Of a DNA stretch of 64,000 nt, positions 1-12,156 are shown one piece after another. The number at the start of each line of letters is the position of its first letter. Positions within the stretch are counted from its first letter, which is position 1. The DNA comes from Psychroflexus salarius (lineage in GTDB: Bacteria > Bacteroidota > Bacteroidia > Flavobacteriales > Flavobacteriaceae): assembly GCF_900129035.1 (NCBI RefSeq), contig NZ_FQTW01000005.1, positions 1 through 64,000 of the forward strand, in the 5' to 3' direction. A model generated the notes under the pieces. That model ran no database searches. It saw only the letters and a program-made list of their open reading frames with translations, and was not told the DNA's origin. Both the position numbers and the translations under genes were made by a program.

Positions 1-105
1 AATAAGATAAGGATGCATATTATATGTATTAAAATGTATTATAGGCTAATTTTGTATACGCTTAGCTTAAAAATTGAATTTGATGACTTATAATTGATTA
101 ATTAA

Positions 106-215
106 TGTACATTAAATGAATAAATAAAGCACATTAAATACATAAATGATGTACATTAAAATATAAAATAATGTACATTAAAAATAAAAATTTTGTACAT
201 TAATTATACAAATGG
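106..215. repeat. Five tandem 22-bp units with core TGTACATTAA
   Basis: The core TGTACATTAA occurs at 106, 150, 172 and 194, and as AGCACATTAA at 128. All five starts are exactly 22 bp apart. The remaining 12 bases of each unit are A/T-rich and poorly conserved. TGTACA inside the core is itself a palindrome. A 22-bp period (two helical turns) with a conserved half and a variable half looks like a protein-binding array (iteron-like or operator array) more than slipped microsatellite DNA. No adjacent replication gene is present. Confidence 0.8.
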
Positions 216-334
216 ATATTATAAGTTAATAAAACAAACCTATGTATTTAGAAGCTTATTAATCTTGTTTTAAATGAGACATCAATTGAAAGTAATGCTA
301 TCTCAATTAAGCTAAAGTGTTAACTTAAGATGAG

Positions 335-419
335 ACACTAGATGAATTAAATGATTTTATATAACTGACATCTGTTGAATGATTCAGACGTCATCTTGTT
401 AATAACTAAAGTCTAGTGT
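335..419. repeat. Nested inverted repeats in gene-free region
   Basis: An outer perfect 8-bp pair (ACACTAGA at 335-342, TCTAGTGT at 412-419) encloses an inner pair, TGACATCTG at 366-374 and CAGACGTCA at 385-393, with one mismatch and a 10-base loop. Could be a folded small RNA, an operator or a degenerate element. No function is assigned. Confidence 0.4.
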
Positions 420-500
420 TGAAAATTATAGTTTTAAATCAAATTTCTAAGGCTATCATTAAATATATAATAGAATGGTACAAAACCTTAGATTATTTAT

Positions 501-542
501 AAAAAAGAAGCCAAAACCCAGTATTGGTGCGGGTTTTGGCTT
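501..542 (-). terminator. Rho-independent terminator of tRNA-Arg
   Basis: Perfect 12-bp stem (508-519 with 531-542) with an 11-base loop, followed on the minus strand by a run of T residues at 506-501. It lies just downstream of the minus-strand tRNA gene. Confidence 0.85.
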
Positions 543-546
543 TCTG

Positions 547-620
547 TGATCGCGACAGGATTCGAACCTGTGACCGTCTGCTTAGAAGGCAGATGCTCTA
601 TCCAGCTGAGCTACGCGACC
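547..620 (-). tRNA. tRNA-Arg (anticodon UCU)
   Basis: Read on the minus strand from 620 to 547, the sequence folds into a 74-base cloverleaf. The acceptor stem is GGTCGCG with CGCGATC (one G-U pair) and the discriminator base is A at 547. The D-loop holds AGCTCAGCTGGATAGAGC, the anticodon loop is CTTCTAA (anticodon TCT, reading AGA/AGG codons), and the T-loop is GGTTCGAATCC. CCA is not encoded. A strong terminator follows. It appears to be a single-gene transcript. Confidence 0.96.
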
Positions 621-726
621 TATACATTTTCAACTTAAAATGGCATCAACAAAATAATATTTTGTTTAGCGGATGCAAATATAAAACATTTATCAGCTCT
701 CACAACTTTTTAAACCATTAAACGCA

Positions 727-757
727 TAAAAAAAAGCGCTCTTAACAGAGCGCTTTT
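727..757 (-). terminator. Terminator downstream of OmpA-like gene
   Basis: Stem GCGCTCT (736-742) with AGAGCGC (747-753), extended by flanking A/T pairs, loop TAAC, then a T-run on the minus strand (735-728). It sits 23 bases after the stop codon of the minus-strand OmpA-like gene. Confidence 0.85.
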
Positions 758-779
758 ATAAAGATATAAAATAAATTAT

Positions 780-1625
780 TTAATCTAAGTTTTTCATACC
801 ATCTTCAATCATACCAAAAAACTGGTCTAATTTCGGTAGAACTACTATGCGAGTTCTTCTGTTTTTAGCTCTTCCAGATTTTGTATCATTTTCGGCAACT
901 GGCACATATTCACTGCGTCCTGCAGCTGTCATTCTAGATGGATTTACATTATATTCATTTTGTAAAACACGCACAACTGCTGTTGCTCGTTTTGTACTTA
1001 AATCCCAGTTATCTTCAAAACATTCTCTAGAAATTGGTACATTATCTGTATGTCCTTCAACCATAAACTCAAAGTCTTTTTTGTCATTAACCACTTTGGC
1101 AACTTTACCTAATACGCGTTTAGCATCTTCTGTTATTTTATAACTACCGCTTCCAAACAACAACTTATCTGAAATGGAAACAAATACAACACCTTTTTCT
1201 ACGCTAATTTCAATATCACTGTCATTAACATCATCTAAAGCACCTTTTAAACTGGTAACTAAAGCTAAGGTTACACTGTCTTTTTTATTAATAGCATCAC
1301 GCATGGTTTTAATTTGTAAATCTTTTTCTTGAAGACTTTCTAAAGAGCGTTCAAGATTTTCAGCGCCTTTTTTAGAAATCGTAGCTAAATCACCCTGGCT
1401 ATTTAGTAATGCAGAGTTTGTATTCTTTAAAGTCTCAATTTGAGATTTATAATTCGCCACTAGGTCACGATTTTTGTCTTCACAAGCACTTAAAGCCATC
1501 TCGGCCGATTTTAAATCGTTTTCAACTTTAGAATAATCTTCTTCTAAGGCTGCAAATTTCTTTTTAGATACACACGAGCTAGCTAATAGCAGCACGGTTA
1601 ATCCCAATCCAATTACTTTTTTCAT
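780..1625 (-). CDS. OmpA-family peptidoglycan-binding lipoprotein
   Basis: 281 residues. The ATG at 1625 is preferred over an in-frame GTG one codon upstream. A lipoprotein signal peptide ends in LLASSC with Cys18 as the lipidated residue. Residues about 25-125 are heptad-like and charged (coiled coil). The C-terminal OmpA domain holds GHTDN (191-195), WDLSTKRA (207-214) and GRAKNRRTRI (251-260), the usual peptidoglycan (diaminopimelate) contact motifs. In the family it anchors the outer membrane to the cell wall. It is a single gene with its own TATTTTTG -7 element (1649-1656) and terminator. Confidence 0.9.
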   Translation of the reverse strand: MKKVIGLGLTVLLLASSCVSKKKFAALEEDYSKVENDLKSAEMALSACEDKNRDLVANYKSQIETLKNTNSALLNSQGDLATISKKGAENLERSLESLQEKDLQIKTMRDAINKKDSVTLALVTSLKGALDDVNDSDIEISVEKGVVFVSISDKLLFGSGSYKITEDAKRVLGKVAKVVNDKKDFEFMVEGHTDNVPISRECFEDNWDLSTKRATAVVRVLQNEYNVNPSRMTAAGRSEYVPVAENDTKSGRAKNRRTRIVVLPKLDQFFGMIEDGMKNLD

Positions 1626-1648
1626 CACGTTTTAATTTAATTTTTAAA

Positions 1649-1656
1649 CAAAAATA
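1649..1656 (-). promoter_or_regulatory. Bacteroidota -7 element for OmpA-like gene
   Basis: TATTTTTG on the minus strand matches TAnnTTTG, 23 bases upstream of the ATG. No convincing -33 TTG at the expected distance. Confidence 0.45.
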
Positions 1657-1683
1657 AGCTTTATCTACTCCTAATAATACGTC

Positions 1684-2703
1684 TTAACACTTTTTTGAAG
1701 TCAATGCTTCATAGCTTTTAATTCTCCAGAAAAATTTATGCCAAACTATGCTTTTTACCCTAAAATATTTTTCTGAAGAAAATACTTCTCGTCGCTTGCT
1801 TTTGATTTTTGAATAAAGTTTTATAAAACTAACATAAGCGCTTACAATTGCCAGTGCATGCTTCAGTTGAAGTTTAAAAGCAAAATACAAAATGGCTGAG
1901 CTATCAATTAAAACTCTACTAATAATTAAACATGTTAGCTTTTTTGGTGCATTCTTAACCAAATTAAACAATGAATTTCTGAAGTTTAAAAAAGTTTTTT
2001 TAGGGTTTTGAGCGTTTAAACTACCGCCACCTAAATGATAGACTTGGCTATATGGTGTGTACATAATTTTATAACCAAAATTTTTAAATCGCCAGCAAAG
2101 GTCTATTTCTTCTTGGTGTGCAAAATAATCTTCATCAAAACCGCCCAAGTTCATGAAAACTTGGCGTTTTAAAGCTAAACAGGCACCACTAGCCCAAAAT
2201 ATTTCGCGGGTATCGTTGTATTGCCCTTCATCTTTTTCGAGCTCATCAAACAACCTGCCACGGCAAAACGGGTATCCTAATTGGTCTATAAAACCGCCTG
2301 CTGCACCTGCATATTCAAAATAATCAGGCTTATTTAAATCTTTTAGCTTGGGCTGTACAGCGGCAACTTCAGCCTTTGTTTGTAATAATTCAATTAATGG
2401 CGGTATCCAGTTTTTGGTTACTTCTACATCATTGTTTAATAAAATAAGGTAGTCTTCTTTAATTAATTTCAGTCCTTCATTATAGCCACCGGCAAAGCCA
2501 AAATTTTGTTTGTTTTCTATAATTTTTAACTCAGGATAATTCTCTTTTAAAAATAATATAGAGTCATCGGTAGAGGCATTATCAATCACATATATATTTG
2601 CTTCTTTACTATATTTAGTAAGGCTTGGCAAAAAACGTTTCAGCAAGTTTTTACCATTCCAATTTAAAATAGCAATGGCAATTTGTGACGATTTAGCGTT
2701 CAT
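1684..2703 (-). CDS. Glycosyltransferase family 2 protein
   Basis: 339 residues. The N-terminal GT-A fold starts with AIAILNWNG, then DNASTDDS (41-48) and the metal/nucleotide-sugar motif LLNNDVEV (around 88-95). Further on are GACLALKR and the acceptor-side GGFDEDYFAHQEEIDLCWR, as in rhamnosyltransferase-like (WbbL type) enzymes. The C-terminal part is basic and hydrophobic, probably membrane-associating. In this family it transfers a sugar from a nucleotide sugar to a surface glycan; donor and acceptor cannot be read from sequence. It overlaps the upstream HsdR_N-like gene by 11 bases, so the two are probably co-transcribed. Confidence 0.85.
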   Translation of the reverse strand: MNAKSSQIAIAILNWNGKNLLKRFLPSLTKYSKEANIYVIDNASTDDSILFLKENYPELKIIENKQNFGFAGGYNEGLKLIKEDYLILLNNDVEVTKNWIPPLIELLQTKAEVAAVQPKLKDLNKPDYFEYAGAAGGFIDQLGYPFCRGRLFDELEKDEGQYNDTREIFWASGACLALKRQVFMNLGGFDEDYFAHQEEIDLCWRFKNFGYKIMYTPYSQVYHLGGGSLNAQNPKKTFLNFRNSLFNLVKNAPKKLTCLIISRVLIDSSAILYFAFKLQLKHALAIVSAYVSFIKLYSKIKSKRREVFSSEKYFRVKSIVWHKFFWRIKSYEALTSKKC

Positions 2704-3139
2704 AAGCTGGTAAATCTTTTAAAAATATATATTGTTGTTGTTGATAGTCTATCTGGCAATAATAGTGAGAAATACCATTAGTTACCCATAAAAATTTGGC
2801 ATTTAATTTTAAATTGTACTGCGCTATTTGGTCAAAGGTTTGTTGGGTAATTTTAATATTTGGGGCTTTACATTCTACAAGTAATTCAATGCTACCAGAG
2901 TTGTTAAAACCAACCACATCATAACGTTTTTTTAAACCATTGAGATTAACCAACTTTTCTTCATTGAGTAGGTTAGGAGAGTAGTGTTTTTCATTAATTA
3001 AGTGTTCAATGCAATTTTGCCTGACCCATTCTTCTGGTGTTAAAAGCAAGTATTTTTTACGTAATCTAGAAAAAATAAACGTTTTATTTTCACTACTTTT
3101 GAGCTTAAATTGAAACTTTTTGAAGTTGAGTTGTTGCAT
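2693..3139 (-). CDS. Stand-alone HsdR N-terminal-like (PD-(D/E)XK fold) protein
   Basis: 148 residues. It carries the core of the type I restriction HsdR N-terminal nuclease fold: RYDVVGF with Asp74, a beta strand, then LLVECKAP with Glu89 and Lys91 (D-x-ECK). There is no helicase or translocase domain, and no hsdM or hsdS nearby, so it is not a restriction system. It lies head-to-head with holA (37 bases between starts) and overlaps the glycosyltransferase downstream. Its position beside a replication gene hints at DNA maintenance, but that is inference; it could also bind DNA without cutting. Confidence 0.8.
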   Translation of the reverse strand: MQQLNFKKFQFKLKSSENKTFIFSRLRKKYLLLTPEEWVRQNCIEHLINEKHYSPNLLNEEKLVNLNGLKKRYDVVGFNNSGSIELLVECKAPNIKITQQTFDQIAQYNLKLNAKFLWVTNGISHYYCQIDYQQQQYIFLKDLPAYER

Positions 3140-3176
3140 GGCTTCAAAAGTAATAAAATATCCTTAAGCACCAGAA

Positions 3177-4184
3177 ATGAAGCAAGCACAAGCCTTAATT
3201 AATAGCATTAAAAAGCGAGATTTTAAACCGGTCTATTTTTTGGTCGGTGAGCGTGAGACTTATTTTGTTGATTTAATTGCCGAGGCTTTAGAGCAACATG
3301 TATTAACTGATGATGAAAAGGCTTTTAACCAAAACATTGTTTATGGTAAAGATGTTAGTATAGATGAAGTAATTAGCTTGTCTAAGCGTTTCCCGATGAT
3401 GGCTGATTACCAACTTATTATTGTAAGAGAAGCCCAAAGTCTCTCTAAACAACTTGCCCAATTAGAAGCTTATTTAGAACAGCCACAAGAATCAACTATT
3501 CTGGTGTTTTGCTATAAATACAAAAAACTTGATGCCCGTAAAAAGGTGGTTAAACTATTAAAAAAGCATCATGTTTATTTTGAGACGCCAGCGATTTATG
3601 ACAACCAAGTACCTGATTGGATTTCACAAACCATGACATCTGCCGGATACAGTATAGACCATAAAGCGGCCGTAATGCTAGTTGAATTTTTAGGGGTTAA
3701 TCTTGCGCATATCTCTAAAGAATTAGAAAAACTCATTATGCTAATTCCTAAAGGTCACCATATAACACCAGAAATCATTGAAGAAAATATTGGTATAAGC
3801 AAAGATTTTAACAATTTTGAGTTAACTAAAGCTATCGGTTTAAAAAATGAGCCCAAAGCTTACCAAATTATCAATTACTTTGCTCAAAACCCCAAGAATA
3901 ACCCTTTAGTGGTGACCACCGGACAATTGTTTAGTTACTTTCAAAAACTTGCAAAGTATCATGCTTTAAAAGACAAGTCTAAAATGAATGCGGCTAAAAA
4001 ATTAGGAATTTCGCCTTATTTTGTAAGTGAATATGTTGCAGCCGCTCAAAAATATCCTTTAAAAAAAGTAACACGAAACTTACATCACATTAAACAAATT
4101 GATTTAATGGGTAAAGGTGTTGATACCTACCAAACTTCACAGGGTGATTTGCTAAAAGAACTCATGGTAAAGCTGATGCGCTAA
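3177..4184 (+). CDS. holA: DNA polymerase III subunit delta
   Basis: 335 residues, normal length for HolA. The N-terminus (INSIKKRDFKPVYFLVGE) is the clamp-loader P-loop-like start without a real Walker A motif. Then come FPMMADYQLIIVREAQ and FELTKAIGLKN, typical of delta. It opens the sliding clamp as part of the clamp loader. The gene is divergent from the HsdR_N-like gene, and its stop codon (TAA 4182-4184) overlaps the stop of the convergent small gene (TAG on the minus strand, 4181-4183) in the four bases CTAA. Confidence 0.93.
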   Translation: MKQAQALINSIKKRDFKPVYFLVGERETYFVDLIAEALEQHVLTDDEKAFNQNIVYGKDVSIDEVISLSKRFPMMADYQLIIVREAQSLSKQLAQLEAYLEQPQESTILVFCYKYKKLDARKKVVKLLKKHHVYFETPAIYDNQVPDWISQTMTSAGYSIDHKAAVMLVEFLGVNLAHISKELEKLIMLIPKGHHITPEIIEENIGISKDFNNFELTKAIGLKNEPKAYQIINYFAQNPKNNPLVVTTGQLFSYFQKLAKYHALKDKSKMNAAKKLGISPYFVSEYVAAAQKYPLKKVTRNLHHIKQIDLMGKGVDTYQTSQGDLLKELMVKLMR

Positions 4185-4351
4185 TCTTTTTTTAAAGCTT
4201 CCAGTTTTTTAGCTACTTCTTCAGCTTCGGCGGTTTTTTGGTCAGCGGCTTTACGATTTGTTTTTGATAAATCAAAGGCTTCTTTTTGAAGTTTCTCGTA
4301 CTTTTCGCGTAGTTGGTCTTCTTCTGATTTTTTCTTAAATAATCCGAACAT
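4181..4351 (-). CDS. Small Lacal_2735-family protein
   Basis: A 56-residue frame starting MFGLFKKKSEEDQLREKYEK and ending EALKKD. It is highly charged, predicted to be almost entirely helical, with no membrane segment or signal peptide. The MFGLFKKKSE start and the S-K-T-N-R region resemble the small Lacal_2735 family common in Flavobacteriaceae, whose function is unknown. The Met start, sensible amino-acid composition and exact tail-to-tail stop overlap with holA support it as a real gene. Confidence 0.8.
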   Translation of the reverse strand: MFGLFKKKSEEDQLREKYEKLQKEAFDLSKTNRKAADQKTAEAEEVAKKLEALKKD

Positions 4352-4437
4352 AGTTTTTTGCTTAAAGAAAACGTTTAAATTACAACTTGTTAGCTTAAGA
4401 CTTCAACTTTAACGCTAAATTAGGTTTGGTATAAAAC

Positions 4438-4611
4438 TTAAACCCGATTATGCACTAAAACTTTACGATGAGGTTTGAAAATACTATAAAATCAGGTGAT
4501 TTGGAAGATTTAGCATAGCATCGTTATGGTGAATCTGAAAACACAAATGAAATGTTGATTTTGGAGTAGTTTCAGGCCGTAATAGATTTTTTAATGCATA
4601 AGTCGGATTAG
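4438..4611. repeat. Palindromic MITE-like element, copy A
   Basis: The left end TTAAACCCGATTATGCA (4438-4454) is inverted at the right end, about 4592-4611. Inner blocks GAGGTTTGAAA (near 4470) and GTTTCAGGCC (near 4569) also pair, so the element is a long imperfect hairpin. It is clearly related to copy B at 28467-28581 but carries about 57 extra bases in the middle. Its right terminal repeat contains the TAA stop (4608-4610) of the mutase gene. There is no coding capacity. Confidence 0.75.
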
Positions 4612-6734
4612 AAGCTATCTAATAAAACTTCTAAAATTTCAATAGCTGCATCACTAATTCGGCTTCCAGGGCCAAACACGGCCACAGCACCTGCCTCAAA
4701 TAAAAATTCGTAGTCGGCTGAAGGTATTACACCACCAACAATAACCATAATATCTTCGCGACCTAAAGCCTTTAATTCATTGATAACTTGCGGCACTAAA
4801 GTTTTGTGACCAGCCGCTAATGATGAGACGCCTAACACATGGACATCATTTTCAACGGCTTGTTTGGCAGCTTCTTTTGGGGTTTGAAATAAAGGCCCAA
4901 TATCAACGTCAAAACCAACATCTGCATAACCTGTAGCAACTACTTTCGCGCCGCGGTCATGGCCATCTTGTCCCATTTTGGCAATCATAATTCTAGGTCT
5001 TCGGCCTTCTTTTTCAGCAAATTCATTGGCTAAATTTTTGGCCTTACTAAATGAGGTATCTTCTTTCATTTCTTTGCTATAAACGCCACTAAACGATTGT
5101 ATTTTTGCTTCATGCCTACCGTAAACTTTCTCTAAAGCTAAACTAATTTCGCCTAATGTTGCTCTGGCTTTAGCGGCTTCAACAGCACAGGTCAATAAAT
5201 TTTCTTTACCACTTTTAGCGGCTTTAGTAAGTTGTTCTAGAGCTAAATTCACTTTGGTCTGATCGCGTTGCGCTTTTATACTTTTAAGCTTTTGCAGTTG
5301 CTGTTTTCTAACGCTTTGGTTATCGACCTCTAAAGTAACAATAGGGTCTTCTTTAGGCAATCTGTAGGCGTTTACACCAATAATTTTATCACTACCGCTA
5401 TCTATTTTAGCTTGCTTTTTAGCAGCAGCTTGCTCAATGCGTAATTTAGGAATACCAGCTTCAATGGCTTTAGTCATTCCGCCAAGTTGCTCAATTTCTT
5501 GAATATGTTCCCAAGCCTTGTGCGCAATATCATGGGTAAGTTTTTCTACATAGTAACTACCTGCCCAAGGATCTACAGTTTTAGTAATTTGCGTTTCTTC
5601 TTGCAAGTAAATTTGTGTATTTCGGGCAATTCTAGCTGAAAAATCGGTTGGTAAGGCAATAGCTTCGTCTAAGGCATTGGTATGTAGACTTTGTGTGCCT
5701 CCAAAAGCAGCAGCTGTAGCTTCAATACAAGTTCGTGCCACATTGTTAAAAGGGTCTTGCTCTGTAAGTGTGTAACCACTTGTTTGGCAATGTGTTCTTA
5801 AGGCTAAAGATTTAGGATTGCTTGGGTTAAATGGTTTTATAAGTTTAGACCAAAGCATTCGTGCTGCACGCATTTTAGCAATTTCCATGAAATGATTCAT
5901 GCCAATGCCCCAGAAAAATGATAAGCGCGGTGCAAAAGTATCAATGTCCATGCCGGCATCAAGCCCTTTTTTTATATATTCTAAGCCATCAGCTAAAGTA
6001 TAGGCCAGTTCTATATCGGCGGTTGCACCAGCTTCTTGCATGTGATATCCAGAAATACTAATGCTGTTAAATTTAGGCATGAATTGAGAGGTATACTCAA
6101 AAATATCTGATATAATTTTCATGGATGGTGTTGGCGGATAGATATAGGTATTTCTCACCATGAACTCTTTTAAGATATCATTTTGAATGGTACCTGAAAG
6201 TTTCGATTGGTCAACGCCAGATTCCTCGGCAGCTGCAATATAAAAAGCCATAATTGGCAAAACAGCGCCATTCATGGTCATTGAGACTGACATTTTATCG
6301 AGCGGAATTTGGTTAAATAAAACTTTCATATCTTCAATCGAGTCGATTGCAACACCAGCTTTACCAACATCTCCTACAACGCGTTCATGATCGGAGTCGT
6401 AACCGCGATGGGTTGGCAAATCAAATGCTACTGAAAGTCCCTTTTGTCCTGCAGCTAAATTTCTACGGTAAAAGGCATTACTTTCTTCTGCTGTAGAAAA
6501 ACCAGCGTACTGCCTAATTGTCCAAGGTCTACTTACATACATGGTCGAATAAGGACCGCGTAGGTAAGGTGGAATTCCTGCGGCAAAATTAAGGTGTTCA
6601 GTTTGGTCTAAATCACTTTTAAAGTAACAGTTTTTAAGTTGTATACCTTCAGCTGTTTTTGCAGTTTTTTTACTCGTGTTTTGACTTTCGTTTTCAAACT
6701 GAAGCTTTATATCTTGTATATTTTTTCGTTTCAT
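4608..6734 (-). CDS. scpA: Methylmalonyl-CoA mutase large (catalytic) subunit
   Basis: 708 residues. The N-terminal TIM barrel has [20 protein letters not shown] and [13 protein letters not shown], typical of the substrate channel. The C-terminal B12-binding domain (about 575-708) has DGHDRG at 590-595 with His592 as the cobalt ligand, followed by GVSSLAAGH and GGVIP. It interconverts (R)-methylmalonyl-CoA and succinyl-CoA using adenosylcobalamin, in the cytoplasm. It lies 15 bases after the small-subunit gene, in one operon. The stop codon lies within palindromic element A, which probably ends the transcript. Also called mutB. Confidence 0.96.
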
Positions 6735-6749
6735 AGTCTCTAAATTGGC

Positions 6750-8129
6750 TTAGGCGTTTGCTTCTTTGTCAAGGCGTTTCAGTTCAATCTTTTCGGCAAG
6801 TCTTCTGGTGATAATTGGTTTAAATTTGACTTGGCGTTGTTGCTTTTTTACAAATGGGTATAACTCTAAATCGGCTTTCATGCGATCATCTGTATTTTCA
6901 TACTTATTAGTACCAACCATCACAAATTCTGTTTTTTCAAGTTTTTCTTCTTCTTTTTTGGCACTTGTTTCTATCGCTTTAGTCACATTGCCTTTAAAGA
7001 GTTCACTTAAATAGCCTTCATTTTTTTCGATGCTTTTAAATTCATCTAGTGCTTTTTGCGCTAATTGTTGGGTTAACTCTTCAATGTAGTAACTTCCATT
7101 TGTGGGATTATGGACTTGATCAAAGTAAGATTCATGTTTTAAAATGAGTAATTGGTTACGAGAAATGCGCTCGCCAAATTCATTTGTTTTATGAAAAATT
7201 TCGTCGTAAGCTAAATTATTTACCCAATCTGCACCACCAAGTACAGCACTCATACATTCGGTTGTGGTGCGCAGCATATTAACATTATAATCGTAAATCG
7301 TTTTGTTACGTTGGCTTGGTTCAGCAATTATTTTTAAGGTAACATCTACTGAAAATGAATTAGCTAAACTGTTGATTAACAATCGATAGGATTTTAGTTT
7401 AGCGATTTCGAAAAAGTAATTAGAACCTGTTGAAGTAATGACGTTAAGTTCAATTGTTTGTGGTAATGTTTGGGCATTACTTAAATAGTTGAAGTATTCA
7501 CTAAGCACCGCTAAACTAAAGCTTAATTCTTGCTGTTTTAAGGCACCAGCATTTTGAAATAATCGCGTATCGATTGAGAGTTGAGGTTCTAGATGCTTCA
7601 ATTGGGCGAATTGTTGAATTATAGCTAAATCTTCAGTTTGAGATTTCTGCCAATCACCCTGAGATGACAAATGCTTAATCGGGTCAAAGTTAAGTAGAAT
7701 ATCAATATTCAGTTCTGCACTAAATTCATCTAAATGCTTTAAAAACTCCTGTTCAAGTTTAAGAAATTCCAGCATTACGGGAACCTTTAAGGTGTTGATT
7801 TCTGTAAGTAAATCAAATAATTTTGTATTGGCTTCGGGGACAATTAACCATAGAGATTCGGCGCCGCGATTAGTAACATCATTTACTATTTTGGTGACTG
7901 CCGTATAATTTTCAAGGTAAATCTTTTCTGTAATTCGCCAATCTTCTGTAATTGGTAAATCGATGTTTTGATGTGTGTCTTGGTGATAAAAAGGTTTGAC
8001 GTCTATACCTTCGTCAGAGTGGTCAATTAATTTTTCGTTATAATCGGCGCCTTTTAAATCAGCTTGAATTTTTTGTTTCCAAGCTTTAGAGGTTATCGGT
8101 TCAAAATCTTTAAATAATTGTTTGGCCAT
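6750..8129 (-). CDS. mutA: Methylmalonyl-CoA mutase small subunit
   Basis: 459 residues. Homologous to the barrel of the large subunit (GADWVNNLAYDEIF and NPTNGSYYIEELT correspond to the catalytic subunit) but with no B12-binding DGHDRG domain, so it is the structural, non-catalytic partner. It ends in a basic tail (IELKRLDKEANA). It precedes the large subunit by 15 bases and follows the FtsB/DivIC-like gene by 5 bases, so udk, divIC, mutA and the large subunit may share a transcript. The small subunit is often shorter than in actinobacteria; this length is usual for Bacteroidota. Confidence 0.93.
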   Translation of the reverse strand: MAKQLFKDFEPITSKAWKQKIQADLKGADYNEKLIDHSDEGIDVKPFYHQDTHQNIDLPITEDWRITEKIYLENYTAVTKIVNDVTNRGAESLWLIVPEANTKLFDLLTEINTLKVPVMLEFLKLEQEFLKHLDEFSAELNIDILLNFDPIKHLSSQGDWQKSQTEDLAIIQQFAQLKHLEPQLSIDTRLFQNAGALKQQELSFSLAVLSEYFNYLSNAQTLPQTIELNVITSTGSNYFFEIAKLKSYRLLINSLANSFSVDVTLKIIAEPSQRNKTIYDYNVNMLRTTTECMSAVLGGADWVNNLAYDEIFHKTNEFGERISRNQLLILKHESYFDQVHNPTNGSYYIEELTQQLAQKALDEFKSIEKNEGYLSELFKGNVTKAIETSAKKEEEKLEKTEFVMVGTNKYENTDDRMKADLELYPFVKKQQRQVKFKPIITRRLAEKIELKRLDKEANA

Positions 8130-8134
8130 GTGGT

Positions 8135-8458
8135 TTAGTTTTGTTGTAAACTATCTTCATACTCTATAATGTAGACTTCTTCGTTCGGGCGTTTCATGAA
8201 ATAATTTTCACGAGCAAAGCGTTCAATTTCTACAGAGTCATTAAGGGTTTTAAAGGTTGCTTTATCTTTAGCAATTTCCTTGATATAATATTGCTTGTTT
8301 TGTTCAAGCTCTTCAATATCTTGATTGAGTTCATGATGTATCAACCATGAATTGGTATCTATAAACAGCATCCAAATTATAAATAAACTTAAGGTTAAAA
8401 TATACTTGTTGGTAAGTATTTTAAACCAGCGTTTAGTTCTTAATTCGTTTAACTTCAT
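8135..8458 (-). CDS. FtsB/DivIC-like septum formation initiator
   Basis: 107 residues. A short basic cytoplasmic N-terminus, one membrane segment at about 17-33, then a coiled coil (about 42-70, LNQDIEELEQNKQYY) and the family end motif IERFARENYFMKRPNEEVYII. In the family it forms part of the divisome with FtsL and FtsQ. It lies directly upstream of mutA, with 5 bases between. Confidence 0.9.
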   Translation of the reverse strand: MKLNELRTKRWFKILTNKYILTLSLFIIWMLFIDTNSWLIHHELNQDIEELEQNKQYYIKEIAKDKATFKTLNDSVEIERFARENYFMKRPNEEVYIIEYEDSLQQN

Positions 8459-8528
8459 GGGATAAATTTACAAAAATTAAAGCTATTAAACTTAAAGTTT
8501 TGTGTGGGCTTTAATTATTAATTGGGCT

Positions 8529-9137
8529 TTATACCAAACGTTCTTTTATGATGGTTTGTACAATATCAATGGCTACTGTATTAAAGCGATTGTTTGGGAT
8601 AATAATATCAGCATACTCTTTAGTGGGCTCTATAAATTGTTGATGCATCGGTTTAAGGGTAGATTTATAGCGGTTAATAACTTCATCAAGGTCTCGTCCA
8701 CGTTCATTAATATCGCGTTTAAGGCGTCGCATCAGGCGCTCATCACTATCGGCATGTACAAAAATTTTAATATCAAACATTTTGCGAATGTCTGGATGCG
8801 TAAAAATTAAAATTCCCTCAACAATCATTACCTTTCGAGGTTGGGTTGTAATGGTTTCATTAGTGCGGTTGTGTTCTTTAAATGAATATACCGGTTGTTC
8901 TATTGATTGTCCAGATTTTAACACCTTTAAATGATCAACAAGTAAGTCAAAATCAATTGATTTGGGATGGTCAAAATTAATTTTTGTCCGATCTTCAAAA
9001 CTTAAATGTGAAGTGTCTTGATAATAAGAATCTTGATAAATGACATCAACTTCATCATGTTGTAATTCATTTATAATTTGATTGACCACGGTTGTTTTAC
9101 CACTTCCTGTACCACCAGCAATACCAATAATTAACAT
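8529..9137 (-). CDS. udk: Uridine kinase
   Basis: 202 residues from the ATG at 9137 (MLIIGIAGGTGSGKTT). A longer frame starting at 9164 is possible, but it would cover a -7-like TACTTTTA just upstream, and the family starts at MLIIGI. The Walker A motif is GGTGSGKTT (8-16), then YQDSYYQD, VYSFKEHNRT and MIVEGILIF. It phosphorylates uridine and cytidine in pyrimidine salvage. The gene ends 70 bases before the DivIC-like gene. Confidence 0.94.
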   Translation of the reverse strand: MLIIGIAGGTGSGKTTVVNQIINELQHDEVDVIYQDSYYQDTSHLSFEDRTKINFDHPKSIDFDLLVDHLKVLKSGQSIEQPVYSFKEHNRTNETITTQPRKVMIVEGILIFTHPDIRKMFDIKIFVHADSDERLMRRLKRDINERGRDLDEVINRYKSTLKPMHQQFIEPTKEYADIIIPNNRFNTVAIDIVQTIIKERLV

Positions 9138-9312
9138 GCGTTCACTTTTGGTGTAAAAGTACACAAGCCCTAGAAATTATAAAATTAATCTGTCAATAAT
9201 GTTGAGTAATTCGAGTGATAATTTTTAGAATTATTTAATTTTTGCGTTTAAACTCTCGTTAATTTGGTAGTCTAACTTAAAGATTTAATTAAATTTATAT
9301 AAAATTTTAAAT

Positions 9313-10419
9313 ATGAAATTATTTTTATCATTTTGCTTTGCTTTTAGTCTATTGGCTTGTGCACAAGAAGATACATCAATTACAGTTATTGAAAATGATT
9401 ATGAATATGAAGTTATTACAGACCAAGTTAATATGCCTTGGGGATTTGATTTTTTTGATGATGGGCGGATTATAATTACTGATAAATCTGGAGAAGTATA
9501 TTTATATGATGACGAAAATACAACTAAATTAAGCGGTTTTCCAGAAGTCTATAATCGTGGTCAAGGCGGCTTGTTAGATGTTAAAATTCATCCTGATTAT
9601 CCTAAAAATCCCTGGATTTACTTTACCTACGCTTCAATCGAAGGTAAAGCTAAAGGTGGTCACACTGCTTTTGCACGTGCTCAATTAACCGGCTCACAAC
9701 TTATCGATTTTGAAGTTTTGTATAAGGCTTCACCAAACACAACAAAAGGTGTACACTTTGGTAGTCGTATAGAGTTTGACCATCAAGGTTATGTTTATAT
9801 TTCAATTGGCGAACGTGGCGAACGCGATGTAAACCCTCAAGATATTTCACGTGATGGAGGTAAGATTTATCGTTTTCATGCAGATGGTCGAATTCCAAAC
9901 GATAATCCGTTTGTAAATGAAGACAATGCCAAGAAGGCTATTTATTCTTATGGACACCGAAATCCACAAGGCATGGAAATACATCCTAAAACTGGTAAAA
10001 TTTGGGTGCATGAACACGGACCACGTGGCGGAGATGAAATCAATATTATTAAAAAAGCGGCCAATTATGGTTGGCCAGTTGTTACGTACGGAATTAATTA
10101 CTCAGGAACAACGATTACCGATGAAACCCAAAAACCTGGGATGACGCAGCCAATTCATTATTGGGTACCATCTATTGCGCCAAGCGGAATGACGTTCGTT
10201 GACTCTAATAAGTATCCACACTTAAACCAAAACTTGTTAGTTGGGTCGCTTAAATTCATGTACTTAGAGCATTTAGTCTTAGCGGATAACCAAGTTGTAA
10301 AGCGCGAAAAAATTCTCGATAAAATAGGTCGTGTAAGAAGCGTAGAACAAAGTCCTGACGGCTTTATTTATGTTGGTGTAGAAGGTGTAGGTTTGGTTAA
10401 AATACTTCCAAAATCTTAA
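9313..10419 (+). CDS. PQQ-dependent sugar dehydrogenase, lipoprotein
   Basis: 368 residues. The signal peptide ends SLLAC with Cys16 lipidated. A six-bladed propeller follows, with MPWGFDF, GGLLDVKIHPDY, the catalytic-base region KGVHFG (His148) and the PQQ-contacting GHRNPQG (214-220), as in soluble aldose sugar dehydrogenases (YliI/Asd type). It would oxidise sugars outside the cytoplasmic membrane. The next gene, one base downstream, is a c-type cytochrome, a natural electron acceptor. The substrate cannot be read from sequence. Confidence 0.92.
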   Translation: MKLFLSFCFAFSLLACAQEDTSITVIENDYEYEVITDQVNMPWGFDFFDDGRIIITDKSGEVYLYDDENTTKLSGFPEVYNRGQGGLLDVKIHPDYPKNPWIYFTYASIEGKAKGGHTAFARAQLTGSQLIDFEVLYKASPNTTKGVHFGSRIEFDHQGYVYISIGERGERDVNPQDISRDGGKIYRFHADGRIPNDNPFVNEDNAKKAIYSYGHRNPQGMEIHPKTGKIWVHEHGPRGGDEINIIKKAANYGWPVVTYGINYSGTTITDETQKPGMTQPIHYWVPSIAPSGMTFVDSNKYPHLNQNLLVGSLKFMYLEHLVLADNQVVKREKILDKIGRVRSVEQSPDGFIYVGVEGVGLVKILPKS

Positions 10420-10420
10420 T

Positions 10421-10846
10421 ATGAAAGTAGTTGTAATCTCTTCATTTTTGTTGTGCTTATCTGTATTGATCTGGAAATCTGAAACTAGTTCTATAAATTA
10501 CCTTGAGCAAAGCCAACTAACCGAGAGTATCAAGCGCGGTCAAATTGTTTACAATAATTTTTGCATGCGTTGTCATTTGCCCGATGGCAGTGGTGTTGCA
10601 GGTGTTTATCCGCCAATTGCCAATTCAAATTGGTTGAGTGAAAAACGAACTGAAAGTATTAAAGCTGTAAAATATGGCTTAAAAGGCGAAATTGAAGTCA
10701 ATGCTAAAGTTTATAATAATATGATGTCGCCTATGGGTTTAAGTGATCAAGAAGTGGTTGATGTAATGAATTATATCATGAACAACTTTGAAAACAAACA
10801 AAAAAAACCTGTCACGCTTTCTGAAGTTCAAGATATTAAAAAATAA
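10421..10846 (+). CDS. c-type cytochrome
   Basis: 141 residues. An N-terminal signal or anchor segment (about 2-19) and one heme motif CMRCH (48-52) followed by LPDGSGVAGVYPP. The methionine ligand is probably within NNMMSPMG (99-106), and DVMNYIMNNF is a typical class I cytochrome c end. It probably accepts electrons from the PQQ dehydrogenase encoded one base upstream; this pairing is inferred from gene order. Confidence 0.92.
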   Translation: MKVVVISSFLLCLSVLIWKSETSSINYLEQSQLTESIKRGQIVYNNFCMRCHLPDGSGVAGVYPPIANSNWLSEKRTESIKAVKYGLKGEIEVNAKVYNNMMSPMGLSDQEVVDVMNYIMNNFENKQKKPVTLSEVQDIKK

Positions 10847-10858
10847 TTTTAAGTTTCA

Positions 10859-10887
10859 GGCAACCCTTTTTGAAATTCTGGCGTCTA
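10859..10887 (+). promoter_or_regulatory. ECF-type promoter ahead of the first sigma gene
   Basis: GGCAACC (10859-10865) and CGTCTA (10882-10887), 16 bases apart, fit an ECF sigma -35 (AAC) and -10 (CGTC) pair, about 20 bases before the sigma gene. A 6-bp inverted repeat GCGTCT/AGACGC (10881-10886 and 10898-10903) overlaps the -10. This suggests autoregulation. Confidence 0.6.
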
Positions 10888-10906
10888 TATAAACAAGAGA
10901 CGCTTT

Positions 10907-11467
10907 GTGAAAATAATAAATCTACATACCAAGCTTGAAAAGCTAATAGCAAGAGCTAAGCAAAACGACCGTCGTGCACAGCATGAAATTTATAAACGTT
11001 TTGCTCCCAAGTTACTGAGTTTAGCAAGATTATACATTGCTGATGTTCAGTTTGCCGAAGATGTTTTGTCACGGAGTTTTGTGAAAATTTTTAATAAGAT
11101 TCATCAATTCTCTTCAAATGACAAAGCTTTTCCAGCTTGGTGTAGGCAAATTTTAGTACGTGAAGCTATCGATTTTTTAAGGCGACAGAAGGCTATTGAA
11201 TTTCCATCTCATGAACTAGAGCATTTAGCCATTACAACTGATGATGAGACATTAAATTATACCCAAATAGACCAAATACAAAGCTGTATTGATCGATTAC
11301 CCAGTGGTTACAAATTGGTGTTTAACCTTTATGTAGTTGAATCTTATACACATAAAGCTATAGCTGAAACTTTAGGAATAAGTGTAGGAACTTCAAAGTC
11401 GCAGCTCTCTAAAGCAAAAAAAATGATTATGAACCTACTTCACGATCAAAAGCAATTGAACGGATGA
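10907..11467 (+). CDS. ECF-type RNA polymerase sigma factor
   Basis: 186 residues from a GTG start. Sigma region 2 spans about 25-95 (AEDVLSRSFVKIFNKIHQF, then FPAWCRQILVREAIDFLRR), and region 4 about 115-175 (IDRLPSGYKLVFNLYVVES, then HKAIAETLGISVGTSKSQLS helix-turn-helix). It overlaps the next gene in ATGA (11464-11467), the arrangement typical of sigma/anti-sigma pairs. The upstream ECF-like promoter suggests it drives its own operon. The signal it senses is unknown. Confidence 0.92.
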   Translation: MKIINLHTKLEKLIARAKQNDRRAQHEIYKRFAPKLLSLARLYIADVQFAEDVLSRSFVKIFNKIHQFSSNDKAFPAWCRQILVREAIDFLRRQKAIEFPSHELEHLAITTDDETLNYTQIDQIQSCIDRLPSGYKLVFNLYVVESYTHKAIAETLGISVGTSKSQLSKAKKMIMNLLHDQKQLNG

Positions 11468-12156
11468 AAAATTTAGAACAACATATTAAATCAAAAATTG
11501 AACAGCGCGAAATACAACCTAGCGACCATGCTTGGTTTAAAGTAGTTGAAGGTTTAGAGCAATCACCGCAACCCAAAAAACGCCCTTACCTATATTTTAT
11601 CGCGGGTCTTGCAGCCGGTTTAGTTTTATTTTTCAGTCTACAAACTTTATGGTTTTCGCCTAGCAGCAACTTAGATGCTCAACCAACAAAGTTTGCTTCA
11701 CCAGCACCAAAATCAAATTCAGTTACTAAAAGCATACTAGTTGTAAGCTCTAATTTGAAGTCTAAAGATGTCTTAATTACATCAAAACTACCACAGTCAA
11801 AACCTATAAATTTTGATCAATTAAATTTGTTTCTACAACCAAGTAACAAGCAAAATTCACATCAGCCTGAAACCACGGAAGATTTAGCAAACTCACTTTT
11901 AGCCGAAATTGAATTAGAACTTCAAGAACAGCCAAACTCAACATCCAAAGATAAATTAACTGAAGTTGACCGTTTACTAGCGGAAGCAAAAGCGCAACTT
12001 CAGCCGCAACAAAGACAGCTTGTAAGCCATGTTACACCAGAATTATTATTAGCAGATGTTAATGCACAACTAGAAGATGATAATTTTAGAGATAAAGTTT
12101 GGGCAGCCATAAAACTTAAATTTAATCAAGTGCAAGAGGCACTTACTCAACGTTAA
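11464..12156 (+). CDS. Probable anti-sigma factor, single-pass membrane protein
   Basis: 230 residues. Residues 1-40 are soluble and contain PSDHAWFKVVEGLE, a common start of Bacteroidota anti-sigma-like proteins. One membrane segment spans about 42-64. The C-terminal part is Gln/Ser-rich, with helical stretches near the end (LLADVNAQLEDDNFRDKVW). It has no zinc HxxxCxxC motif. The start overlaps the sigma gene stop by 4 bases, so translational coupling is likely. The anti-sigma role is inferred from position and topology. Confidence 0.65.
   Translation: MKNLEQHIKSKIEQREIQPSDHAWFKVVEGLEQSPQPKKRPYLYFIAGLAAGLVLFFSLQTLWFSPSSNLDAQPTKFASPAPKSNSVTKSILVVSSNLKSKDVLITSKLPQSKPINFDQLNLFLQPSNKQNSHQPETTEDLANSLLAEIELELQEQPNSTSKDKLTEVDRLLAEAKAQLQPQQRQLVSHVTPELLLADVNAQLEDDNFRDKVWAAIKLKFNQVQEALTQR

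Follow-up and report, generated by a model that had tools for sequence, protein, structure and literature searches.

Which protein, if any, reads the repeated units found at the very beginning of a Psychroflexus salarius contig, and what are such units for? The window, that is, the whole 64,000-nucleotide stretch analyzed here, starts with the first base of this contig (C13), so that the sequence to the left of the array is absent from the assembly. TGTACATTAA starts at positions 106, 150, 172 and 194 and the variant AGCACATTAA at 128, with a constant step of 22 bp. An array of five units with an exact 22-bp period had been claimed from the letters alone, and it is confirmed by this direct reading, by Tandem Repeats Finder, which returned period 22 along with its 44-bp multiple over positions 91-213, and by a shuffle test. 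When self-matches were scored over 44 bp, the array reached 35/44 at lag 22, a value never attained at any lag between 9 and 44 in 1000 dinucleotide shuffles of window positions 1-540 (shuffle maximum 32), and elsewhere in the 64 kb no site scored at least 33/44 at lags 20-24. The core of the array, TTAATGTACATTAA, is dyad-symmetric.

Surroundings and copies of the array

The preliminary description had placed the array in about 500 bases without a gene. This has to be corrected insofar as the nearest gene is close by: it encodes tRNA-Arg(tct) and is followed by a gene of the OmpA family (Table 1). The first 540 bp of the window are present in two further copies. One of them, 96% identical, is situated at the end of contig C36 and stops at a fragment matching the 3' end of a tRNA, beyond which a tyrosine integrase gene follows; the other, 85% identical (query 28-540), ends at tRNA-Arg(tcg) on C20. 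As C13 and C36 terminate in identical sequence, an assembly break at the repeat is suggested. The occurrence of the three-copy block at tRNA-Arg 3' ends likely reflects the accretion of tRNA-targeted islands. Inspection by eye also pointed to genes for type I restriction-modification and for transporters on C36. Two weak block matches on C22 and C11 of the same genome were excluded from the count of arrays; the match on C22 is devoid of the 22-bp lattice, and neither was found by the TGTACA pattern scan described below.

Table 1. Coordinates of the features discussed, in window positions
Feature	Positions	Strand	Remarks
Repeated block	1-540		copies C36:23699-24237 and C20:27002-27553
Unit 1	102-115		perfect 14-bp palindrome TTAATGTACATTAA
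Unit 2	124-137		degenerate core AGCACATTAA at 128-137
Unit 3	146-159		TGTACATTAA at 150-159
Unit 4	168-181		TGTACATTAA at 172-181
Unit 5	190-203		TGTACATTAA at 194-203
Array-side tail	215-505		C36 copy 97% identical, C20 copy 96% identical
Terminator-like inverted repeat	508-542	minus	downstream of tRNA; T-run visible on minus strand
tRNA-Arg(tct)	546-620	minus	
OmpA-family gene	780-1628		

Apart from two short matches of 31 and 42 bases, the tail that follows the array has no counterpart in the other 99 genomes scanned. Segment 215-545, which includes the tRNA terminator, folds better than shuffled sequence on both strands (z -3.0 and -4.7), and in an Rfam search over positions 1-12000 the gathering score was reached by the tRNA alone; a conserved RNA in the tail was therefore rejected. 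It is possible that the tail specifies a small RNA or is merely a recent copy.

Sister arrays and their conservation

A search of the whole genome (G000) for further arrays, as had been proposed, was carried out and revealed four more, on C36, C20, C18 and C33, so that five arrays with a common core and common spacing are present. The array on C33 is located in the gap between serS and a gene for a 222-aa protein without a Pfam match, the one on C18 in the gap preceding a gene for a 138-aa protein. The latter is a member of the HU-HIG family (PF18291; 7e-29, 100.8 bits against a cut-off of 26.2), little-studied variants of the nucleoid protein HU, while its score with TIGR01201 (HU_rel), 68.1 bits, falls marginally below the cut-off of 68.6. 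All eight aligned array-linked proteins match PF18291. Core and period of the window units are the same as those of the C18 units, and on this count the window array would belong to the class of HU-HIG-associated 22-bp arrays proposed here. The earlier statement that no obvious regulator is present holds true locally, but a candidate regulator is encoded elsewhere in the genome, namely by the C18 HU-HIG gene with a sister array upstream.

No HU-HIG gene was recognized among the open reading frames listed to the right of the window array, and its left side lies beyond the contig end. In a congener available as a single contig (G020), the orthologous array is preceded on its left by a recombinase gene and not by one for HU-HIG. 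On these grounds the window array is termed a solo array. The recombinase is an Xer/integron-like tyrosine recombinase (L065 6245-7423). Altogether, the congener carries three arrays at loci matching C18, C33 and the window, with HU-HIG, serS and tRNA-Arg(tct)/OmpA, respectively, as neighbors. Solo arrays were seen in two genera only, the TGTACA-type core being the only core for which solo copies were searched. They sit between genes of unrelated kinds, several of them between convergent genes, and the neighbors (serS, tRNA-Arg, HsdR, aroA/queA, a DAHP-synthetase-family gene and an ECF-type sigma factor) share no common theme. In G021, the solo array (L147 4058-4129) precedes a type I restriction (HsdR) gene, the listed start of which is about 235 bp away.

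Comparison with close relatives gave a mixed result: an array at the same tRNA-Arg locus exists in one congener and arrays at other loci exist in two more, but 23 of the 27 genomes of the genus have none with the pattern used. Over seven orthologous arrays from two genera, differences amount to 13/312 in cores, 34/281 in spacers and 176/1547 in flanks, the core count being somewhat lowered by the fact that cores were found by exact TGTACA in one partner. The proposal that the units are phased protein-binding sites rather than products of recent slippage is supported by their dyad symmetry and by cores that diverge less than spacers and flanks overall, although three of the seven are without a clear core advantage (core versus spacer 2/36 and 1/30, 1/36 and 1/30, 1/48 and 1/39). 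Between G000 and G020 the arrays at the HU-HIG and serS loci differ by whole units, so unequal exchange does occur. Recent slippage as the origin of the array fits poorly, and a CRISPR or a recent simple tandem duplication was rejected because the units match each other at 76-80% only and the cores change more slowly than the spacers overall.

HU-HIG genes and 22-bp arrays

The link between arrays and HU-HIG genes was followed from both ends. Thirty genomes were scanned for three TGTACA motifs at 22-bp distance with at most two mismatches, using the reversed pattern as a control; three of the 30 had been picked since an earlier scan of 397 genomes of the family had matched them. Arrays were found in seven genomes (the control pattern had no match), and all seven (G000, G020, G001, G021, G118, G337 and G417) have one array directly upstream of an HU-HIG gene. 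In the earlier scan, six genomes matched and in five of these, including G053, an HU-HIG gene is found beside the array. A TGTACA lattice in G182 has no HU-HIG gene at that lattice, and a match in Lacibacter (L060) was discarded as likely due to chance, given that it comprises two units only. Within the genus, an HU-HIG ortholog with at least 56% identity is present in four of 27 genomes (G000, G001, G020 and G021), which are the same four that possess arrays. This coincidence would have a probability of 1 in 17,550 under an assumption of independent genomes that does not hold here. More distant HU-HIG relatives (43-47% identity) in G001, G008 and G013 are not accompanied by an array; the matches in G008 and G013 contain an in-frame stop.

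Starting from the protein, a profile built from eight HU-HIG proteins, whose relatives of solved structure are HU and IHF, gave 55 matches in 28 of the 397 family genomes and the PF18291 Pfam model gave 21 matches in seven of 149 genomes of the class (E <= 1e-20 in both cases). Fifty loci were taken from the 55 family matches, 49 of which were testable on both sides; L184, L187 and L189 are three of the five matches left out, and the C21 gene of G000 came in via the class search. One of the class matches duplicates the C18 gene, resulting in 70 distinct genes, of which 69 were testable. Self-match over 44 bp was scored in the 450 bp flanking each gene to the left and right, and a gene was counted as positive when lag 21 or 22 reached at least 29/44, a threshold picked after the upstream scores had been seen. 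By this measure 39/69 HU-HIG genes are positive versus 5/361 control genes (Fisher p about 6e-31, a value that assumes independent genes, although the 69 include two genes of our own genome and close relatives and are therefore not all independent). Arrays lie upstream in 19 cases and downstream in 21, including one gene with arrays on both sides; the remaining 30 HU-HIG genes have no array at the threshold. Without the six profile-building genes 33/63 are positive, and by set the values are 33/49 for the family and 6/20 for the class. When only upstream regions of the family set are considered, 15/49 reach at least 29 at lag 21 or 22 versus 2/381 control genes drawn from the window and from further G000 and G020 loci. 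In a sweep of the threshold from 27 to 32, run on the HU-HIG genes only, the count drops from 47/69 to 20/69. Scores of at least 29 fall on lag 22 (14 upstream, 17 downstream), lag 44 (5 and 9) and lag 21 (5 and 4), with other lags giving at most three per side. A second control, the upstream regions of other open reading frames in the HU-HIG loci, gave 10/172 and thus exceeds the first; however, seven of these ten are arrays just downstream of an HU-HIG gene (L159, L182, L183 at 1572, L210, L221, L245 and L247), leaving three that are not HU-HIG-adjacent arrays (L163 at 2538, L183 at 3387 and L193).

While the spacing is constant, the cores are highly variable, and paralogs within a single genome can differ as well (G417, G333, G118 and G000). 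The core is TTAATGTACATTAA in our own genus, AATATTGTACAATATT in G118 and G337, AAGTTGTACAACTT in G417, TTTAATACGTATTAAA in G243 and GTATAC at the second gene of G417, while downstream arrays have CAAACGTTTG in G182 and GAAACGTTTC in G292 and G446. The second HU-HIG gene of G020 is associated with GAACCGTTTC. That of G000, on C21, has a ACTTATGATAAGT-type lattice downstream, past a terminator-like hairpin, a position that argues for a role of the array as DNA and not as RNA. The dyad is visible in position tables compiled from 47 and from 31 units. In a test on three units per array, 13 of 24 selected arrays are dyad-symmetric at p<=0.05; the window array (p 0.21) and the C18 array (p 0.18), each taken alone, are not significant in this test. 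Since HU-HIG relatives often have a different array with the same spacing, the repeats are probably binding sites of that protein, and recognition of its own array by each HU-HIG protein would, judged from these sequences, be the simplest account.

Possible roles of the arrays

The interpretation we favor, and hold to be probable though well short of certain, is that the window array is a satellite of the C18 HU-HIG protein, dimers of which would occupy the dyad units cooperatively on one face of the DNA and bend or wrap it, with the solo arrays acting in trans. HU proteins are dimers and bind DNA as dimers; a dimer is well matched to a site with dyad symmetry, and a spacing of two turns allows dimers to lie in line on one face. 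One HU-HIG dimer would recognize one dyad unit, the 22-bp spacing would align the dimers and permit cooperative binding, and the bound dimers may form a compact complex in which the DNA is bent or wrapped. The array at the HU-HIG gene may additionally regulate this gene. As downstream arrays are as common as upstream ones in the sample, regulation of the own promoter is unlikely as a general purpose. Where the complex forms at a solo array (window, C20, C33 and C36), it would most likely act in trans, marking the chromosome locally for its organization and not switching a promoter. A DNA-organizing role with the solo arrays as trans sites of HU-HIG is accordingly favored as a guess. Like IHF and specific relatives of HU, the protein has the HU fold and would act on DNA as a dimer; unlike the single, asymmetric sites of IHF, the arrays consist of three to seven dyad units on a fixed lattice. 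Reading of specific arrays is at odds with the description of HU as non-specific (PMC5683647).

Alternatively, a separate transcription regulator, for example of the CRP/FNR type, might control HU-HIG genes together with a few further genes and use the arrays as its operators. The CRP/FNR site, TTGAT-N4-ATCAA, resembles TTAAT-GTAC-ATTAA of the arrays, and the upstream position of an array at HU-HIG in all seven array genomes agrees with this idea, as do three-unit TTAATGTACATCAA-type arrays in Labilibaculum that adjoin, by eye, an apparent hybrid two-component regulator gene instead of HU-HIG. We nevertheless regard such operators as improbable. Cores differ between HU-HIG paralogs of one genome, so that a single regulator would be insufficient; the array is located downstream at 21 of the 69 HU-HIG genes; solo arrays lie between unrelated genes, among them several convergent pairs; and a crude scan with a consensus promoter pattern (TTG-N17-24-TAnnTTTG) found it at one of 12 array regions, which is not that of the window. 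The TTAATGTACATCAA-type arrays with three units at 22 bp occur in Labilibaculum and a Marinifilaceae MAG (L061 3395-3452, L062 and L059); at L061, the only one of these loci for which open reading frames were listed, no HU-HIG gene was recognized.

It is likewise rather doubtful that the solo arrays are mere remnants of mobile DNA, in which case the 540-bp block would form the end of integrative elements that target tRNA-Arg, would have been disseminated by them and would serve no function today. The 85-96% identical blocks that end at tRNA-Arg genes (C13, C20), the copy on C36 that abuts a tRNA 3'-end piece and a tyrosine integrase gene and the tyrosine recombinase gene left of the tRNA-Arg array in G020 are all in line with this possibility. 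However, no integrase was recognized among the open reading frames listed at the serS and HU-HIG loci, where the arrays are kept in both species, cores are conserved above flanks overall, and the flanks of the four g78 array loci can be aligned between two species. An integrase as the owner of the array was rejected, because six relatives of the G020 recombinase (56-67% identity; L067-L072) are without a TGTACA lattice in the loci examined. A repeat with a 22-bp period but unrelated sequence was observed in L072.

It is very improbable that the arrays are plasmid-type iterons, an origin of replication or a parS-like centromere: direct repeats two helical turns apart do resemble iterons, but no replication initiator or ParA/ParB was recognized among the open reading frames listed around the arrays (by eye and in partial Pfam scans), and the arrays of the single-contig congener do not form a cluster as a centromere would but are scattered (18, 1254 and 2045 kb of 2556 kb). 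The replication or segregation role raised in the preliminary description thus receives no direct support. No clear switch in GC skew was apparent at the window array, a weak test as the window starts at the array, and 20 places sampled along G020, in which the origin itself was not located, showed no sharp pattern at the arrays. Rep-type plasmid iterons are likewise direct repeats near 22 bp; in contrast to them, the arrays occupy several chromosomal loci, and no Rep gene was recognized near those examined (listed open reading frames, partly profile-scanned). Iterons and parS clusters therefore fit poorly. Arrays of repressors or of the ParB/parC type share with the HU-HIG arrays a protein gene beside several phased sites and a specificity that differs between systems, but HU-HIG arrays lie up- or downstream, no ATPase partner was recognized and extra solo arrays exist in the chromosome. 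On a viral contig (L066 5667-5713), an 11-bp TGTACATTAA-type array, and thus one of different spacing, was noted by eye right before a ParA-like gene.

If HU-HIG proteins read these arrays, the implications extend beyond the window. HU is usually viewed as non-specific chromosome glue, whereas, given a widespread HU branch with private, phased dyad arrays at its genes, many Bacteroidota would rely on HU-type proteins to read DNA specifically. A constant 22-bp lattice with changing letters would render the binding code of the family predictable from sequence and directly testable, and the solo arrays would offer a handle on the action of such proteins at distant chromosomal loci. To our knowledge, no binding site has been described for the HU-HIG family; novel clades of the HU superfamily have reportedly been treated in one paper. 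A literature search, with most subscription papers outside its coverage, yielded no description of HU-HIG proteins paired with a private 22-bp array and no paper containing PF18291 or TIGR01201. This pairing is what the present analysis adds, and it is new in the sense that it was not found in the literature searched. Quite tentatively, HU-HIG proteins could make up an extensive class of systems that mark chromosomes sequence-specifically, in Bacteroidota and on at least one spirochaete plasmid, each protein with an orthogonal dyad code on a 22-bp lattice by the gene, some of which would mark distant loci and gather or condense them in a centromere- or domain-like manner.

HU-HIG relatives were found in plasmid and phage collections (10 plasmid and four phage records). 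Nine of these 14 records were examined, seven from plasmids and two from phages, and four have an upstream array of at least 29/44. These arrays precede HU-HIG genes in plasmid records of Treponema saccharophilum, Bacteroides finegoldii, Parabacteroides distasonis and Phocaeicola massiliensis (Pfam membership checked for three of the four). Some "plasmid" records carry rpsL, rpsG and fusA and may therefore be pieces of chromosomes. In the B. finegoldii record, another 22-bp array that differs from the first is found downstream (L247, about 3181), before a gene annotated as ATP-binding protein. In L271 and L263 the repeats upstream of HU-HIG have periods of 10/20 bp instead of 21/22 bp, with 43/44 matches in L271.
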